From positions 1-23,771 of IMG/VR virus record IMGVR_UViG_3300030110_004504: a stretch of DNA of 23,771 bases; one strand, written 5' to 3'. The number at the start of each line of letters is the position of its first letter. The stretch's first letter is position 1. Origin of the DNA: a virus. The notes beneath the pieces were generated by a model. That model was not told the DNA's origin. It did no database searches and saw nothing but the letters and a program-made list of their open reading frames with translations. This document shows, one piece after another, positions 1 to 22,699 of the stretch. A program made the position numbers and the translations under genes.

Positions 1-3000
1 CAGGCAAAGACATTTTAGCTGGAGCTCTTTGTGCACTACCAACTCTCAGTTCTTCATTAGCATTTTCAAGAGCTACTCTATCTGCTAAACTCTCTGCCGA
101 TAGCCTATTTTCTAATACATCGTACATATTATTCATACGACCCGAGTTGATGTAGTACATCTTCTTGTCACCAAGGCCCATTGTTCTAGCATCAACGTTC
201 TTTCTGTCTTTAAATTTAGATCTGTCCATATCAAGTGTTGTGATATGTGAGTTTAAACTAGAGTCATAATCATCAGCGATAGTTTCTAATTGATTTTTGT
301 ACTCGTAAGGATCTATTGTTTTTTCTCTATTTTTCTTTGCTAAACCATAAGTTTCATTTAACATGAATACATTTTCTTTTAAATGCTCAGTGTATTCTTT
401 TAAAAACGCAGCGGGTTCTTTAGCTTTTGTTCTATCGTTAGGGTCTGCTATTTTTTTAGCATTACGTTTGTTGAACTCATCAGATAATACTTTTGCTTCT
501 TTATATAACGGGTGTGATTCGTTTTTAGGATCTTGTGAAACGCCCTCATAAACCTCAATATGCTTAAAGTTTGCAAACATTCTATGAAAACCACTTGTGG
601 CGTTTTGCGTGCCTTTATATATTCTTAACACACCAACTCTATCCATGGGGTTTTGGCTAGCATTTAACTCGCCTAACCTTTGATTCATGTATGTGAATAG
701 TTTTTTGTTTGTAGCGTTAGCTTTTTGTATTTCTGGTTTTAAAGCCTGTAGCTGTTCTTTTTTATTAGTATCAGTAGATTTTAATATCTTCCATATTTTT
801 TTGTATAAAGTTCCCGTAGAAACGTTAAGTGATTGTTTTATATCTTCTACTTTTATACCTAACTCAGGTACATTTTTGTTTTTATTTATACCTTTTCTTA
901 TTTCTGCTAATATATCTTGAGCGTCTTTATCAGCTAAACTTAAACCTTTTTCAGTTTTAACATCTTTGCTTAAGTTGCTCGCGTTAAAGCCAAAAAAGTT
1001 TAGTTGAGCATTACCAAGTTCTTTTGATAAGCCCGCTATAGCTTTCAACATATCTGGGTGCATAGTTTTTATAAGAGCTTTTACGCCATGAGCAAACTGT
1101 TTTCTTGCCTTACCTTTAAACTTTTTATCTACTTTATTTTTACCACCCACGTCTTGTGTGTACAACTCATAGGCTTCTTTGTCATTAGCTTTTAGATACT
1201 CTTCTTGTGTTTTAGCCCAACCATCTTTGTCAAGTGGAACAACCTCTGATTGCATATCAGTTAGCCACTGTATAAAATCTGGTCTTTCATTTGCTGGTAC
1301 ATCAGCTATTATATCTTCTAAAAATAATTCGTATGTTAATGGATCTGAGTTAGCAGATAAAAAGAATTCAGTTAACGCTGGTCTACCGTAAGCTTCGTAT
1401 GTAGGTAAACTTATTTTAAGTTTTGATCTTATGTTTGTAACATTTCTAGCGTCTGTAATTAATTTATCAGCGTTGATATCTATAACCTCTTGTATACCTG
1501 TTTCGTTAAGCACGTTAACAATATCAGGTGATGATGTTACTTGCTGTGCCATTTCAAAAGCCATGTAGTTAGATATCTCTTCTACTATTTTATCTTTTCT
1601 AACACCAACTCTACTAGCTGGTCCATCAAGAAAATAATTTAAAAACTCACCTTTAACTTGATCCCAAGGTTGCTTTTCAAACAGTTGAGGTTGTGATGTT
1701 GCTGTTTTTATAACTCGCTTTCCTGTAGGTTTTACAAATAAATCAGGATTACTTTTATCACCTCTAAATCTCTTGTTTAACGTTTCAACATTAACATCAT
1801 TAAAGTATGTTTCAAAGTTGTCTGTTAAAAACTTTTTGTAAACTTCTTTTTTCTTTATTGTATTTTTTAAATCCTTTCTTATTGCTTGTCTAAACGTGTC
1901 TTGTAAATTAAGCTTAGCTATACGCGGTTTAGTACCAACAGCTAGTTTCTTTAACACATCAGTAACTTGTTGTTTAACAACCGTATTAAGTTTAGCTTGT
2001 ACTTTAGGATCTATTTTAATTTTATCACTAATACTTGTTGTTGCTTGTTCTGTTATAGTATCTAACGTACCTTGTTGTTTTGCTTTTCTTTCTTGCGTTT
2101 CAGTTACTTTTGTTTCTTTTCTTTGTAGTCTTTTTACAGCTGTGCCAAACTTCTGTACTATGTATGAGTTTATATAAGCATCAAAGTCATCGTTCTTTGT
2201 TGGGTTAAAAGCTCTAGCATGTAACAACAAGTTGTACATTGTGTCCATAACAATGTCACTTTTCTCTTCAGCTATATCAAATGTAGAAAGATCTGACATT
2301 GAATAATCTCTTCTTTGATTTACTACAGCTTCAATTTTAGGCATGTAGTATGGTATAACTTCATCTATAGCTGCCTTGCCTTTTTGCTCGTAAAGTCTAT
2401 TTACTATTTCTTTTCTTTGTTGGTTTTCAATATCGTAGTTTGCTATTTTCTTTTTATCGTATATTCTTTTTGCTGTTTGTAATGATGGTTCACTTATTAA
2501 CTTACCTTGTAAAGCATTAGTTGACAACCTACCAAAAGACTTATATAGTTTACCTTCTTCAAAACTTTTGTTGTAATCTTTTAATAAATTAAATACATCT
2601 TCAGCTGTGTTAACTTTCATGTTAACATTAAAGTGTTTTCTAAGAAACTGTCTAACTAAGTCTGCAAGCTTTTGAAAAGTTGTTTGATCATATTTAAGTT
2701 CATTGTTAGCCATAGCCTCTGATGTTAATGTTAACACCTCTTCATACCTTTCTGCTTCAGTTAACTTACCATCTTTAACAGCGCCTTTATACGCTTGTAG
2801 TCTTTCTTTAAACCTACTGTTGTTTATTTCTTTTACGTTTATTTTATTTAAATAAGTTTCTAACTCTTTACCTAGTGTTATAGCTGTCTCGTCATTGTTC
2901 TTTAATGTTTCATGTAGCAAGCCATGTAGTAACTCGTGTTGACCAACTGTAAACTGATCACTTTTCATTGCTTCATCTTTGTTAATAACAATTACTTGTT

Positions 3001-4579
3001 TACCTGTGTCAGCATCTTGTATTATTCTACCCTCACCATCTGAGTCAAAGTTTGTTTTATGCTTAGCGTTGTACTCGTTAAAAAAGTTTACATACTCTTC
3101 GTTAGATAAAGACTTAAAGCCTATTTTTAAAAATTTTGCAAATGCTTCTGTTTTAGCTAAATTGTTTTCTAGGTTTTGTGTTTTTCTTAGATAAGCCCCA
3201 CCTGATATAACATCGCTAGCTGTAGTACTACCATCATATTTCTTTAATATGTTTTTTATTTGATTTTTTATCTCAGTGGCTCTGATGTTACCAGCAACGC
3301 TAGTTTGATCTTTTATTTTAGCATGCTGCTTTTCTAGTTTTATTATTTCTTTTCTGTCTTTTACGTTTGTTACGTCTTCACCTATTGCTAAATCATATAA
3401 CGCTTCTTGTCTTTTGTTATTAACAAGCTCTTCTATTACAGCGTTATTTTTTACTTCTATATTTGCTTTTCTTAGTGCTTCTGGATTTAGTCGATTTACG
3501 TTTTCTACAAACTTACGTGCGGAATATGACTCGTTATTTATTTTATATGTACCTGGTTGAGCCATGTTTAAACCTATTGATATAGGTGCTGTAGTTGTTC
3601 CTGCTATACCTTCAAAACCTATTTCAGCTACGTCCATTTCCTGATCAGCTGCTAGTCTACCAGCCACTTCACCTAAACTACCGCCCACAGCCTCAACACC
3701 AACGCCTGCAGCGGTTGCGCTAACTTTACTACCACCACCTAAACGAATACCTCTAACGGCTTTACCGGCTACACTTCCAGCAAGAGCTTCAAATGCTCCA
3801 ATAGCTATACCTCTTGCAACGGCTTTTTGTAACAAGCTATCAGCTTTATCTGGATCATCAAGTACAGCTCTTATGTTTTCTAAAGTAAAGTTATCTTCGC
3901 CAACTTCTTCTTTTAGTAATTCGCCAAACGTTAATGCGGCTTCCATGCCTGTAGCTAAAGCACCTACACCACCAGCAAATATACCTGTTGGGCCAGCAAA
4001 TGAACCAGCTGCTGCACCACCAACTGCAAGCCCCCTGACATCATCAGAGTCAACAGCTGAACCTATCATAGTAGCCATTGATGAAACAAATAATTGTGGA
4101 ATAATAGTTGGACTGTCAGCAACACCTTTTAGAAAACCCCATACACCTTTACCTTGTTCTTCGTATATTTTATTAAAGCTCATCATCTCGTCTGAAGACG
4201 GGGCTTGGCTGCTTACGTTATATGCTTCAATAAATTTTTGTATATCTTCATCTGATGCGCCGCCACCAAATAAACCTTTCATTACTTCTATGCTTTCATC
4301 TACTGATTTAGCGGCTTGAGCTCCTGACTTTCCAGCTCTGTATAAATCACCTATAAAATCTCCTATAAAAGGTACGTTGTCAACTGCGAATTTTTCTTCT
4401 TGTGACTCTGGTTTTGTTGAGCTACCATATTTTGGTTCTTGGTTAAAAATAACATCGGGAACGTAACTTAAAACTTTTTTTCTATAGTTAGGATCCGTGT
4501 TAAATGCTTGTTCAAAAACTTCATAGGGCTGATCAATTAAACCTCTTTGAAATAAACTGTTGTATATTTTATCAACCAT
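1..4579 (-). CDS. Giant internal virion (ejection) protein with zincin-like HELLH motif, partial
   Basis: An open frame runs from an ATG at 4579 to the left edge without a stop: at least 1526 codons, 3' end missing. I read the codons of this frame on the minus strand. Residues about 150-220 and 255-340 are rich in Gly, Ala and hydrophobic residues (for example GLAVGGAAAGSFAGPTGIFA and GIAIGAFEALAGSVAGKA), resembling membrane-active segments of phage ejection proteins. Residues 548-557 read HELLHGLLHE, an HEXXH zinc-peptidase motif preceded by a short beta-type stretch (KQVIVIN). A glutamate pair at 613-614 (YEEVLTLTSEAM) could supply the third metal ligand. The remainder is charged and mostly helical, with no domain I can name. 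It is the last of three ejection-type genes, four bases after the previous stop; its size and position parallel T7 gp16. Peptidase activity is inferred only. An ATG at 4584 that overlaps the upstream stop is out of frame and ends after 15 codons, so 4579 is the better start. Confidence 0.85.
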   Translation of the reverse strand, partial: MVDKIYNSLFQRGLIDQPYEVFEQAFNTDPNYRKKVLSYVPDVIFNQEPKYGSSTKPESQEEKFAVDNVPFIGDFIGDLYRAGKSGAQAAKSVDESIEVMKGLFGGGASDEDIQKFIEAYNVSSQAPSSDEMMSFNKIYEEQGKGVWGFLKGVADSPTIIPQLFVSSMATMIGSAVDSDDVRGLAVGGAAAGSFAGPTGIFAGGVGALATGMEAALTFGELLKEEVGEDNFTLENIRAVLDDPDKADSLLQKAVARGIAIGAFEALAGSVAGKAVRGIRLGGGSKVSATAAGVGVEAVGGSLGEVAGRLAADQEMDVAEIGFEGIAGTTTAPISIGLNMAQPGTYKINNESYSARKFVENVNRLNPEALRKANIEVKNNAVIEELVNNKRQEALYDLAIGEDVTNVKDRKEIIKLEKQHAKIKDQTSVAGNIRATEIKNQIKNILKKYDGSTTASDVISGGAYLRKTQNLENNLAKTEAFAKFLKIGFKSLSNEEYVNFFNEYNAKHKTNFDSDGEGRIIQDADTGKQVIVINKDEAMKSDQFTVGQHELLHGLLHETLKNNDETAITLGKELETYLNKINVKEINNSRFKERLQAYKGAVKDGKLTEAERYEEVLTLTSEAMANNELKYDQTTFQKLADLVRQFLRKHFNVNMKVNTAEDVFNLLKDYNKSFEEGKLYKSFGRLSTNALQGKLISEPSLQTAKRIYDKKKIANYDIENQQRKEIVNRLYEQKGKAAIDEVIPYYMPKIEAVVNQRRDYSMSDLSTFDIAEEKSDIVMDTMYNLLLHARAFNPTKNDDFDAYINSYIVQKFGTAVKRLQRKETKVTETQERKAKQQGTLDTITEQATTSISDKIKIDPKVQAKLNTVVKQQVTDVLKKLAVGTKPRIAKLNLQDTFRQAIRKDLKNTIKKKEVYKKFLTDNFETYFNDVNVETLNKRFRGDKSNPDLFVKPTGKRVIKTATSQPQLFEKQPWDQVKGEFLNYFLDGPASRVGVRKDKIVEEISNYMAFEMAQQVTSSPDIVNVLNETGIQEVIDINADKLITDARNVTNIRSKLKISLPTYEAYGRPALTEFFLSANSDPLTYELFLEDIIADVPANERPDFIQWLTDMQSEVVPLDKDGWAKTQEEYLKANDKEAYELYTQDVGGKNKVDKKFKGKARKQFAHGVKALIKTMHPDMLKAIAGLSKELGNAQLNFFGFNASNLSKDVKTEKGLSLADKDAQDILAEIRKGINKNKNVPELGIKVEDIKQSLNVSTGTLYKKIWKILKSTDTNKKEQLQALKPEIQKANATNKKLFTYMNQRLGELNASQNPMDRVGVLRIYKGTQNATSGFHRMFANFKHIEVYEGVSQDPKNESHPLYKEAKVLSDEFNKRNAKKIADPNDRTKAKEPAAFLKEYTEHLKENVFMLNETYGLAKKNREKTIDPYEYKNQLETIADDYDSSLNSHITTLDMDRSKFKDRKNVDARTMGLGDKKMYYINSGRMNNMYDVLENRLSAESLADRVALENANEELRVGSAQRAPAKMSLP

Positions 4580-4583
4580 ATCA

Positions 4584-6605
4584 TTATTGTATTGGTACGT
4601 TTAGAGGTGGTGGCGTGTTATCGCTTTTTTTCATTACACCTATAACCTCTGCTGTTTTTGTACTTATAAATTGATTGTTAAGCAATGAGGTCATCAAATC
4701 TATTCTACCTTGTTCAGTTGTCGCATTACCAACATGACCTCTTATGTCGCCGTCTTTGATGGTAAATACTCCAGATTTATTTACAAAATCAGTTCCACCA
4801 ACAAACCTGTTAAACGCTATGTCTTTTAGTATATCTACTATTTGCGCATTAGCTTTTAAGTCACCTGTCTCATATATCATTACACTAGTAAGTGTTGACA
4901 TTACACTTTGTTCTTGTTCTTGTGATATTAATCCAGCCTCAGATAAAGCTTCCACAAAATCACCTGTAAACTGATAGTATTTAATTCCGCCAGATTTACC
5001 TTCGCGTATAAATTGTAATCCCGTGCGTGGATCTACTTCTAAGTCAAAAGACTTCACTGTACCAATTTTATCAGGATCTAAAGCATTAAACACCCTTTCT
5101 AATACAACTCTTTGCAGATCTGCTTTACTATCATCTCCAGCAATTCCTTCTCGTATTTGATTTTTAACTTCATCAATTACCGTGCTCACTCTATCTTGAC
5201 TTCTAAACAAATAGCTTTTTGCTTCGTCATATGTGTTTACACTACCTTTAACGTTACCACCTCTTCTAACGATTTCCTGTAGATATCGCTTGTTATATGC
5301 AGTTAAGTCCGCTGGAGTTAAATCACTTTTTAAAACTGGCACGTTGTTATCATCTAACACATACTGGGGGTTATTGTTTGCGTCTAAAGTTGTTTCAAAG
5401 AATCTAGCATTATTTTCATTTTCTGCTAATTTTAGTACAACATTATCTTGTATTCCTTTAAGGCCAGCTGCAATTCTTTCGGCGGTATTTTTAGGTCCTT
5501 TCAATTCTTCTGCATCTTTAATTTTCTGCAAATAATCATCTATCTCTTGTTGTCTTTTATCATCTTGAATTTTCTTACCAGCCTCAATAAACTGATTACC
5601 AATACGCTGTGTAAAGCTTCTTACAAAAGTTTCAACGCCTTGTACAATATCTGGTTGCTCAACACCAGCTTTTAATTTCATACCTTGTTCTTTTCTAACT
5701 TCTGGATTAATAAATGATTCCCAATTTTCTGTAAATTCACCGGCATTTTCAACTACACTTTCAAACAGTTTTCTATACGCATCATCATTTTGTATCCTTA
5801 AAGTGTCTGTCAAACCAGTTTCAGTTTGAAACTCAGTTGGTATTGTTATCTGAAAGTCTAACAAGTCTTGTATGTCAGAGTAGTTTAAATCATTGTCAAT
5901 GCTTCCTAATATTTTTGTAAGTAAAGCACTTGCTTCAGCTGTGTTTGTTGATGCTGTTGTTGCTACTTGAGCAAGATCATTTGAGTACGTTGAATACAAA
6001 CCTTCTCTAGGTTGATCGTATGGTCTTAGATCGTTTAGTTCAACATCACCTATACCATCAATTTTAACAATTGTTTTACCGTCTTTAAAGTAAACATCTA
6101 AAACTTCATCAGCTTGACCAGATTTATAATCACCATTTATTAACTCTGTGTAAGCTGCTCTTAATTTAGTTTCTCTAGCACTTAACTTAGTGTTTGTTTC
6201 GTGCGGAAAAAAAGCGTCAGGGTTATTAGCAAACTCTGTTTCAGCCTCTTCTAAAGACTGAATACCAGCTTCCATTTTTGTTAGTTCTTTTAATATTTCA
6301 GCATTTCTTTGTCTAGCATTTATAGCTACATCAGAAAAATCAGCTTTTCTATACGATACATCTGCATTGCTTTTGTATTCGTTTTGTAATTCTAATACTT
6401 TACTTTGTATTTTTGGTTGAAGAAAAGATAATGTTGTATCAAAAACTTGAGGGGTTAACTCTAAATCTTTTATCTTTTGATCAAACTTTCTTTGATAATA
6501 TTTATTTAAAGCATCGTAGTTTAGACCTTCGCCTATACTTCTGCCCCAGTCTACCGCTGTTACTGTACTTAAATTACCTACTATTTTTTCTTTAAAAAAT
6601 GCCAT
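4584..6605 (-). CDS. Putative internal virion (ejection) protein, 673 aa
   Basis: The 673-residue product is mostly charged and helical, with likely coiled coil in the N-terminal third (around residues 35-125, containing QSKVLELQNEYKS and EILKELTKMEAGIQSLEEAE). It has no signal peptide, no membrane segment and no enzyme motif that I recognise. A Pro-rich tail (TPPPLNVP) closes it. It lies between a small Gly/Gln-rich ejection-type protein and a giant protein, the place that T7 gp15 or P22 gp20 type proteins occupy. From that context I infer an internal virion protein that leaves the capsid with the DNA. Sequence alone does not prove the role. The start ATG at 6605 follows the A/T-only leader ATAAATAAAATAAT, ten bases after the upstream stop. 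Confidence 0.75.
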   Translation of the reverse strand: MAFFKEKIVGNLSTVTAVDWGRSIGEGLNYDALNKYYQRKFDQKIKDLELTPQVFDTTLSFLQPKIQSKVLELQNEYKSNADVSYRKADFSDVAINARQRNAEILKELTKMEAGIQSLEEAETEFANNPDAFFPHETNTKLSARETKLRAAYTELINGDYKSGQADEVLDVYFKDGKTIVKIDGIGDVELNDLRPYDQPREGLYSTYSNDLAQVATTASTNTAEASALLTKILGSIDNDLNYSDIQDLLDFQITIPTEFQTETGLTDTLRIQNDDAYRKLFESVVENAGEFTENWESFINPEVRKEQGMKLKAGVEQPDIVQGVETFVRSFTQRIGNQFIEAGKKIQDDKRQQEIDDYLQKIKDAEELKGPKNTAERIAAGLKGIQDNVVLKLAENENNARFFETTLDANNNPQYVLDDNNVPVLKSDLTPADLTAYNKRYLQEIVRRGGNVKGSVNTYDEAKSYLFRSQDRVSTVIDEVKNQIREGIAGDDSKADLQRVVLERVFNALDPDKIGTVKSFDLEVDPRTGLQFIREGKSGGIKYYQFTGDFVEALSEAGLISQEQEQSVMSTLTSVMIYETGDLKANAQIVDILKDIAFNRFVGGTDFVNKSGVFTIKDGDIRGHVGNATTEQGRIDLMTSLLNNQFISTKTAEVIGVMKKSDNTPPPLNVPIQ

Positions 6606-7406: not shown

Positions 7407-7733
7407 TTATTTACTACTCTCAGCTATCTCGGAAGATAACTGAAATAATTCAGCTTCAGCTGTACTATTATTTTTCATTACAGCTTCAGCATAATATCCT
7501 ATTATATCTGCTTGGTTTGCTTTATTATCTTTAGCAAAAAGGTAATAAGTACCACCAGCAGGTGTTACCACATTGTCAGCAACGCTAACTGTTATTTTTT
7601 TAGTTGTGGTGTTGACTACAGTTATTGTTCCCAACCTCTTAGCTTCTGTTCCACTCTTAAAGAATATGATATCATCAACTTGAACTAAGTCGTTTAAATC
7701 GTGCGTAAATGTTAGTGTTATTAATCTTGCCAT
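7407..7733 (-). CDS. Small beta-rich virion-associated protein, unknown function
   Basis: The 108-residue product has alternating beta-strand patterns in its first 70 residues (ITLTFTHDL, DDIIFFKSG, GTITVVNTTTKKITVSVAD, GGTYYLFAKD). It ends in a helical tail, GYYAEAVMKNNSTAEAELFQLSSEIAESSK in outline, that ends on Lys. I see no signal peptide, membrane segment or catalytic motif. It lies nine bases after the giant tail gene and 26 bases before the ejection cassette, so a structural role at the tail or vertex is the natural inference. A small adaptor or decoration protein are both possible. A/T-only leader (AATAAAAAAAT) before the ATG at 7733. Confidence 0.7.
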   Translation of the reverse strand: MARLITLTFTHDLNDLVQVDDIIFFKSGTEAKRLGTITVVNTTTKKITVSVADNVVTPAGGTYYLFAKDNKANQADIIGYYAEAVMKNNSTAEAELFQLSSEIAESSK

Positions 7734-20284: not shown

Positions 20285-22699
20285 TTATCTAGGTCCAAAC
20301 GAACTTAGATCTATTCCTTCGCCTAATATATCATTACCTGAAGACTCAAACTTTTTAGGTCCTGAACCTTCTTTTCTTTGTGATATTAATTCAGACTGTT
20401 GACTAGCTTGTATTCTAGTTCTTTCATCTTTACGATCTTCTTTAAAAGTTTCTCTAGTCTTTAACGCTTCAACTTCTAAATTTTTAAGTTGCGCTGATAT
20501 CTGAGCTTCAGCTTGCATTAACTGAAACTTAAGCTGTGCTTCAGTTTGTAGCTTTTGTAATTCAACTTGACCTCTTACTTGTTCAAGCTGAGCTTTACTT
20601 TGTAAGGATACTTGTTCTTTTTGTAACTCAGCTGCTGCCGCTTGTTCTGCAGCTTGTGCGTTTGCTTGAGCTTGCACTTGTATATTTCTTTCTGCTGTAG
20701 CCTGATCACGCTGTGCTTTCTTTTGTCTTCTTATTTTTAAAACTTGATTTGCTAGTTTTAAGTTTTTAATCTGCCTAACATCAATAGCATCTTCAAGCTC
20801 TATACTGTTAGACTGTAAAGCCATTTGTATATTATTTTCTAACAATTGTTTTTCTTCTTCATCTGGCGCTAGCTCAATAAATATACCAAAGTCATATAAG
20901 TACAACTCATTAAGCTCACTTAATGTAGCTACATTATGAGCACCAACAGCTTGTATGAAAGCATCTCTTGTTGGCGAGTACTCTAATAAATCAGATATTC
21001 TTAATGATAATGATTGCGCTAACTCAGTTGTTAAGAATAAACCAGACTGTAGTATATGTCTTGTAGCTGTATTACTATTTGCCGCTGCCATCTTTTGTAT
21101 ACCAACTAAAGCGTTTTTATCAGGTGTGCTACCATCTCTTGCTTCGTTTAGTCCAGTTACATCTCTTATCATTTGTAGATAATAGTTATAAGTTGTAATT
21201 AAACTCTGCATTTTATTACCACCACTACCGCTAGCTATTTCTTGTATAGGTACTTTGCCTGGATTCATGTCACCTTCCTGAGTGAGTGATCTACCAATGA
21301 TACTACCAGTTTGGAAAAACATGTTTAAAGCTTCTTGTGGATTATAATTTGTACCGTTACCTAGATCAACCTCAGCTAAACCATCAGCATCTAAATAAAC
21401 ACCATCAGGTACCATGCGTGACATAACCTGTTGTATTTTTAAATGTGTTAACTGTATCATGTCAGCAAAACCTGTTATACGTCTTACTAAAGATTCTATT
21501 CTACCTTTGTACATACGTGGAGCTACCATGTTATAATTCATTTTAACTCTAGTGTAATCACTTTTAGAACGTATTTGATTTTCAGCTAATTTCCACTTTA
21601 ACAAGTTTTTAGTACCCACTATTAAAGCTCCTTCGTATAATACCTCTATAGCTTTTGAAACTCTCTCAAAATTACCATCACCAGGCGGATTAAAAGTATC
21701 ATCTTTTTCAATAGCTTTTTCAGCACCTGATCCTAATGTTTTTACTTTAAATACATTATTAGCATACGTCTTATAATTAAAATATAATACAGTAATAATG
21801 TTTTCATCTAAATTATTATCTTCATACTTAGTTCCATACCTTGTTGCTTGGTATGCAGGTTGTGATGGTTGTTGTTGTATCTCTTCAAGATCAGCATCTG
21901 TTAAATCTGGAAACTGTTTTTTAAGTTCGTTTATAGATACATTTTTTGCTTCACCAACATAATAAATGTCTTCAAAGAAAGGTGAATCGCTATATGAATA
22001 AACTAAATTAGCAGGATCAACATATTTTATTGTTGCGCCTTCTGATGTGTTAAAATCATTTTTAACAGCACCAATGCCTATAACGGTTAAATCTTGATAA
22101 ACTCTTTTTAATATATTATCATAATGATTACCTTCCATTAGGACTTTCAAAGCCTGTTCTTCTGCTATTTCTATAGATTGTTTATAGTTTAATTGCATGT
22201 GTACCTCTAGTTCTTCAGTAGTCTCTGGTAAACTTTCAGGATCGTTTTGGTATATATTAATACCAAACTTATTCATCACATCATTATTAAAATCTTTTGA
22301 CTGCATATCACCAACAACAGATTCCATATATGCTGTTCTTTGATTTACACCGGCTGGATCTTGTGAGTAAGCTTTTATATCATAAGCTCTTTCAGCAATA
22401 CCATTTACTACTATATCTACAAACTTAGGTATGATAGGCACTGGCTTCCAGTCTAAATTAAGATATGATAAATCACCATTAATAGATAATTCATCTTTAT
22501 ATTTCTGTATTGATTGTTCGCCTCTAGCATATAATCTAAGTTTATGAAACTCAGCTTGATTAATATTATACCTATTGTTGTTTTTATCTTTTCCAAACCA
22601 TTCGCTTTCGATGGCTTTAGCTACTTTTAAACCGTATTCAGCACTAGCTTTTTCAGCATCACTAACTACTTGACTAGGAAAATAACCTTTTTTACTCAT
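20285..22699 (-). CDS. Portal protein with long C-terminal coiled coil
   Basis: The 804-residue product follows the terminase gene by two bases. The N-terminal third has portal-type features: a helical clip (EFHKLRLYARGEQSIQKYKD) and then PVPIIPKFVDIVVNGIAERA. A long beta/alpha core follows, with repeated aromatic strands (TVLYFNYKTYANNVFKVKTL). A helical section holds the conserved-looking DKNALVGIQKMAAANSNTAT and LSLRISDLLEYSP. From about residue 655 to 775 it becomes a Gln/Ala/Glu-rich coiled coil (QAQANAQAAEQAAAAELQ, LEQVRGQVELQKLQTEAQLK), which fits the helical barrel that lines the inside of podovirus portals. The last 25 residues are flexible and glycine-rich. The product forms the ring through which DNA is packaged and leaves. 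Portal identity is supported by size, pattern and order. Confidence 0.85.
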   Translation of the reverse strand: MSKKGYFPSQVVSDAEKASAEYGLKVAKAIESEWFGKDKNNNRYNINQAEFHKLRLYARGEQSIQKYKDELSINGDLSYLNLDWKPVPIIPKFVDIVVNGIAERAYDIKAYSQDPAGVNQRTAYMESVVGDMQSKDFNNDVMNKFGINIYQNDPESLPETTEELEVHMQLNYKQSIEIAEEQALKVLMEGNHYDNILKRVYQDLTVIGIGAVKNDFNTSEGATIKYVDPANLVYSYSDSPFFEDIYYVGEAKNVSINELKKQFPDLTDADLEEIQQQPSQPAYQATRYGTKYEDNNLDENIITVLYFNYKTYANNVFKVKTLGSGAEKAIEKDDTFNPPGDGNFERVSKAIEVLYEGALIVGTKNLLKWKLAENQIRSKSDYTRVKMNYNMVAPRMYKGRIESLVRRITGFADMIQLTHLKIQQVMSRMVPDGVYLDADGLAEVDLGNGTNYNPQEALNMFFQTGSIIGRSLTQEGDMNPGKVPIQEIASGSGGNKMQSLITTYNYYLQMIRDVTGLNEARDGSTPDKNALVGIQKMAAANSNTATRHILQSGLFLTTELAQSLSLRISDLLEYSPTRDAFIQAVGAHNVATLSELNELYLYDFGIFIELAPDEEEKQLLENNIQMALQSNSIELEDAIDVRQIKNLKLANQVLKIRRQKKAQRDQATAERNIQVQAQANAQAAEQAAAAELQKEQVSLQSKAQLEQVRGQVELQKLQTEAQLKFQLMQAEAQISAQLKNLEVEALKTRETFKEDRKDERTRIQASQQSELISQRKEGSGPKKFESSGNDILGEGIDLSSFGPR

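Follow-up and report, generated by a model that had tools for sequence, protein, structure and literature searches.

Does the HELLH motif of a giant protein, encoded by the last gene of a phage late operon, mark an active peptidase that travels with the DNA into the host cell, and what would such a peptidase cut? The motif lies in the virus record IMGVR_UViG_3300030110_004504, whose positions 1 to 23,771, the whole 23.8-kb stretch analysed here and called the window below, consist of a single minus-strand late operon (Table 1). Judging from sequence comparison, HELLH is best read as the predicted active site in a domain of zincin-like metallopeptidase type, which spans about residues 460-630 of a modular protein of 2382 residues, and we put the probability of an active zincin-like domain in a delivered giant protein at about 0.7.

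Table 1. Positions in the window of the genes, domains and residues discussed in the text
Feature	Window position	Strand	Remark
Late operon content			terminase large subunit, portal, capsid and tail genes, muzzle, two small proteins, 673-aa protein, giant protein
Portal protein	20285..22699	(-)	PHROG 6547, E=1.7e-147
Muzzle (tail tip) protein, crassvirus type, 2234 aa	7743..14447	(-)	Pfam PF25731, E=1.3e-15; PHROG 14478 virion structural protein, E=9.3e-142
673-aa protein between muzzle and giant gene	4584..6605	(-)	place of crassvirus cargo proteins C1/C2 by gene order
Giant protein gene, holding residues 1-1526 of about 2382	2..4579, start ATG 4579	(-)	runs off window end
N-terminal domain with Gly/Ala-rich part, residues 72-450	3230..4366	(-)	PHROG 32588 (unknown function), E=1.1e-46
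Zincin-like metallopeptidase core, residues 460-630	2690..3202	(-)	predicted; AlphaFold2 on 109-row alignment
Strand KQVIVIN, residues 527-533, just ahead of active-site helix	2981..3001	(-)	predicted strand
HELLH, residues 548-552	2924..2938	(-)	predicted zinc ligands H548, H552; predicted general base E549
Glu614, predicted third zinc ligand, downstream helix	2738..2740	(-)	invariant in 109 relatives; in 80/80 loci
Conserved stretch past Glu614, residues 617-682	2534..2731	(-)	consensus TLFSDAI...DVYNFxKDYNKSIxxGKL

The portal of the window is 53% identical to that of MW202828 (host unknown), 42-46% to those of Elemovirus (Flavobacterium phages) and of Maribacter phage Panino, 35% to that of Cellulophaga phi38:1 (Pervagoviridae) and 25-27% to portals of Pachyviridae; the closest portals belong to phages of Flavobacteriia. 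The window phage, a marine Bacteroidota phage whose muzzle is of crAss type, is by these comparisons kin of Elemovirus and Callevirus, a kinship that does not imply membership in Crassvirales. As a weak hint to the host range, contigs of the group (L268-L281) were binned in MAGs of which half are Bacteroidota (Flavobacteriaceae, Saprospiraceae, Sphingobacteriales, Crocinitomicaceae). In the inspected relatives the genes follow the order of terminase, portal, structural genes and a long structural protein, with the giant gene last, the exception being Gundel_1, where the giant is placed ahead of the terminase. The 673-aa protein has no significant family match in Pfam or PHROG, and PHROG 18548 is split over two ORFs, the muzzle ORF matching its start (4-87) and a 108-aa ORF (7407-7733) its end (144-239). 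Recovery of the giant gene from a longer contig, proposed in the earlier note, succeeded: a contig 97% identical to the window (L002/L008) carries it in full, with 2382 codons for amino acids.

The decapeptide HELLHGLLHE occupies residues 548-557 (window 2938-2909, minus strand). Counting from the ATG at 4579, we found in the window ORF the HELLH at 548-552, the KQVIVIN before it and the two Glu at 613-614 exactly as the earlier note had read them, and the Asn of KQVIVIN is kept in 70 of 72 relatives. Among 109 non-redundant relatives the solely invariant columns are H548, E549, H552 and E614, so the conservation of HExxH among homologues, on which the peptidase idea depends, holds in 109 of 109. 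The proposed Glu pair stands by its second member, while residue 613 is E in 62 relatives and D in 27; the proposed contribution of His556-Glu557 to the site has to be given up, these positions being unconserved and Glu occurring at 557 in just 10 of the 109. This pattern of conservation indicates that the site consists of HExxH and Glu614, and that the second 'HE' is incidental.

Our first large fetch of relatives was biased, as the pattern held HE.LH and 70 of 80 loci matched that pattern alone. Since this fetch was driven by the motif itself, two motif-independent ones were made, which share loci, so that their counts are not mutually independent. With residues 617-682 as a query, each of the 80 loci shows, 53-99 residues ahead of the match, an HExxH whose two inner residues vary from locus to locus, and also has a Glu in the position of E614. 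With the conserved C-terminal domain, some 1400 residues away, as a query, 75 of 80 loci give proteins of at least 1800 aa, and 69 of these 75 long giants contain HExxH, for which an estimate from composition (about 0.007 per 2382-aa copy) leads to an expectation of 0.31. Among the other six are four with HExxxH in the corresponding region (L204, L213, L232, L261) and two with neither form (L198, L248).

The AlphaFold2 model of residues 460-630 reached a mean pLDDT of 92.3 and a pTM of 0.87, with a predicted order of helix, strand, helix, strand, strand, the HExxH helix, more helices and the E614 helix. In it the two His of HExxH lie one turn apart on a single helix, and E614 is inside the helix predicted at model positions 149-165. 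The modelled order of helices and strands agrees with a zincin-like MPTase core, that is, an N-terminal helix, a three-stranded sheet and two C-terminal helices. Foldseek recognised no solved zincin in the PDB, the compact model included, a gap that may come from a diverged minimal domain or from a limit of the comparison; in the viral library it matched a single protein of an uncultured virus with E=8e-4 and, more weakly, proteins of polyvalent, MuF and SprT-like type.

To which zincins, then, is the domain closest? The earlier note had denied it metzincin spacing, rightly, since HELLHGLLHET has neither the G nor the H needed for HExxHxxGxxH, and residue 556 is unconserved. A thermolysin-type gluzincin is not supported either: there is no NExxSD, the consensus being EExLTxFSD with the Asp at E+7 and not at E+4. 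Peptidase_M78 (IrrE/ImmA-like, PF06114) is the best Pfam match, with 15 and 19.1 bits; both scores are under the curated cut-off of 22, and membership was rejected. Ten of the 71 members scanned match it weakly (E=2.7e-4 for the best), and the likeness covers 46 residues up to and around HExxH, but spans only the first catalytic helix and the part preceding it. PF18818 (MPTase-PolyVal) has no match in the window, nor in the control genomes, and is not among the 25 of 45 families that are listed for the 71 members.

A profile built on the N4-like virion RNA polymerases of 11 phages matched our domain family along the strands and the HExxH helix with P=1.3e-5 and a probability of 81%, the reversed control giving 0.19. 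With HExxH masked the match kept its register at P=0.009, and from this drop we conclude that the motif makes up most of the signal. The profile search suggested in the earlier note has thus yielded the N4 match and the weak M78 one, while no solved zincin was reached by profile, a search of the zincin profile against the sequences of solved structures returning nothing. The MPTase of N4 vRNAP (gp50 C1, residues 2124-2375; PDB 9PNR, 9PNQ and others) shares with the window family an HExxH after a strand, a conserved later Glu (NEFMAW in N4) and a place in a giant protein of a late operon, one that enters the cell by ejection in N4 and probably does so here. It differs in the stretch between HExxH and this Glu, and the significant similarity is limited to about 64 columns, through the HExxH helix.

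The MPTases of polyvalent proteins, predicted by Iyer et al. 2017 (PMC5512222; PF18818), resemble our family in having HExxH or HExxxH, both of which variants it contains, in the Glu on a later helix, in the three strands with an N-terminal helix that are predicted for it, and in belonging to large virus proteins of modular build whose enzyme domains vary; the window family differs by a helical insert between the two catalytic helices. As its closest known kind we would name the zincin-like MPTases that phage polyvalent proteins carry, that of the N4 virion RNA polymerase among them. Of the two assignments offered in the earlier note, the polyvalent-protein one is favoured by conservation, predicted secondary structure, the N4 profile match and gene position, and the gluzincin-like one, taken as a specific family, is not supported, with NExxSD missing and no solved zincin recognised by fold or profile. 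Among cultured phages, the giant structural protein of Elemovirus (gp18 in Flavobacterium phage elemoF) carries HEIFH at residue 1543, within a domain related to ours (31.8 bits); HEFGH motifs occur in the giant structural proteins of MW202828 and Tenacibaculum phage Gundel_1; the giants of Panino, phi38:1 and phi13:2 have no HExxH, and a direct tblastn in cultured phages gave no match.

For the delivery of the protein a comparison is offered by gp47 of PhicrAss001, which has the same operon place after muzzle and cargo genes and a similar size (262 kDa), and was detected in virions by mass spectrometry (PMC10172136). It differs in being called RNA polymerase-associated, with no peptidase mentioned (PMC10172136). 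In the window's giant family we found no match to the N4-type RNA polymerase, and the D.DGD motif of multisubunit-type RNA polymerases, searched in the giants, has no consistent presence.

We propose that the giant protein probably travels inside the particle and enters the cell together with the DNA, as suggested by gene order, by crAss001 gp47 and by relatives annotated as structural. His548, His552 and Glu614 would hold Zn2+ and Glu549 would activate water, as the invariance of the four residues and the fold class suggest. After delivery the peptidase would most likely cut the phage proteins injected with it, within or between them, and so release the N-terminal part from the C-terminal domains, or else cut a host protein. 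Mean pairwise identity is 0.29 in the peptidase domain vs 0.60 in the C-terminal domain. Such fast sequence change, together with the near-universal presence of the domain, suggests a shared job with a substrate changing along with the enzyme. On this reading we rank cleavage of the injected phage proteins a little above that of a host protein; we offer such processing after entry as a tentative proposal, a little short of even odds.

An injected peptidase that cuts a host envelope or defence protein is the next to be weighed, and is possible though on balance unlikely. The same divergence around fixed catalytic residues would fit an effector of this type, as would the HAD phosphatase-like and P-loop kinase modules which come and go in the same giant; a defence-specific effector, however, would be expected to turn over, and the peptidase is present in 73 of 75 giants. 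We may go further and imagine that the domain founds a peptidase clade of its own, nearly universal in a large group of uncultured marine Bacteroidota phages, and acts at one conserved entry step, for instance by cutting the giant as it crosses the envelope. We consider this rather unlikely; if true, it would make proteolysis a regular part of ejection in these phages.

Maturation, with the enzyme cutting its own giant or the neighbours while these are still unpackaged in the producing cell, a role suggested for P1 DdrB, seems quite improbable. DdrB is processed before packaging and has a C-terminal MPTase (PMC5512222), and our peptidase sits suitably between the conserved N-terminal and C-terminal domains, but L007 keeps both these domains without it. 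Moreover, N4 vRNAP is packaged unprocessed (PMC5512222) and, with its HExxH subdomain, was produced and solved at full length (PMC12633501), which argues against compulsory self-cleavage in that relative. The peptidase domain is dispensable in some phages, being absent from L007 and from L005, which retains the N-terminal domain, while L198 and L248 are without the motif; it is not strictly required.

A non-catalytic structural or regulatory domain, with the metal site kept for folding, is a shade more improbable again. The consulted part of the N4 structure paper describes autoinhibition of transcription by the C-terminal region, HExxH subdomain included, and reports no peptidase activity (PMC12633501), yet in our family Glu549, predicted to serve as the general base rather than to bind zinc, shows the same invariance as the ligands. 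A chance motif or an artefact of composition can be dismissed, as the only point in its favour is the shortness of HExxH, set against 69 observed vs 0.31 expected, the other motif-independent fetch and the invariance in 109 relatives.

The kind of domain and the idea are already published, and are known in other giant injected phage proteins; for the window family, its near-fixed presence and its HExxxH members we found no description in the literature and libraries searched. For the HExxH domains of giant injected phage proteins, cleavage was predicted by Iyer et al., while the consulted part of the N4 structure paper reports no peptidase activity for its HExxH subdomain. Here the family may be of use, as a large set with four fixed residues amid divergence, together with natural relatives lacking the domain, makes the role testable. 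It also extends the theme of peptidase-bearing injected giants to marine phages with a crAss-type tail tip.

Around the peptidase, the giant is built from the N-terminal domain, a stretch with a weak likeness to sigma region 2, a middle module that takes two very different forms, a HAD-phosphatase-like region and a strongly conserved C-terminal domain. HAD-type motifs are found in the C-terminal half of most full-length giants and are absent from others; in L008 they (DFDDTL, LTAR, DDAxxN) fall at residues 1551-1700, past the window end. In L066, L082 and L087 the HAD region encloses a P-loop kinase-like stretch, which in L023 comes after the peptidase instead; it corresponds to Zeta_toxin/AAA_33 in one scanned member, and the copy in L082 bears a weak resemblance (E=0.005) to the kinase chain 4gp7. 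The pairing of a kinase with a phosphatase, if true, would point to nucleic-acid end repair. Polyvalent proteins typically gain and lose enzyme modules in this way. LPD23 and LPD14 scored only below the cut-off in the giant protein, and a match of the C-terminal domain with a part of Gundel gp74 was gone with the full sequence and is not used.

The sigma-70 region 2-like stretch (residues 772-820, window 2120-2266, NPTKNDDFDAYINSYIVQKFGTAVKRL) matches Pfam with E=0.005 and NCBIfam sigma70-ECF with E=0.0009, with weak matches in 6 of 71 relatives; a profile search of solved structures did not confirm this reading. The two forms of the middle module (residues 1015-1526, window 2-1537), compared in L008-L013, are about 20% identical between flanks whose identity is up to at least 95%, which indicates recombination inside the giant gene. 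A second HExxH outside the studied domain occurs in the giants of L021, L022 and L024 (residues 2125-2162) and of L045 and L048 (residue 1612), and in L197 and L202 the conserved C-terminal domain is found on an ORF of its own, of 661 or 627 aa.
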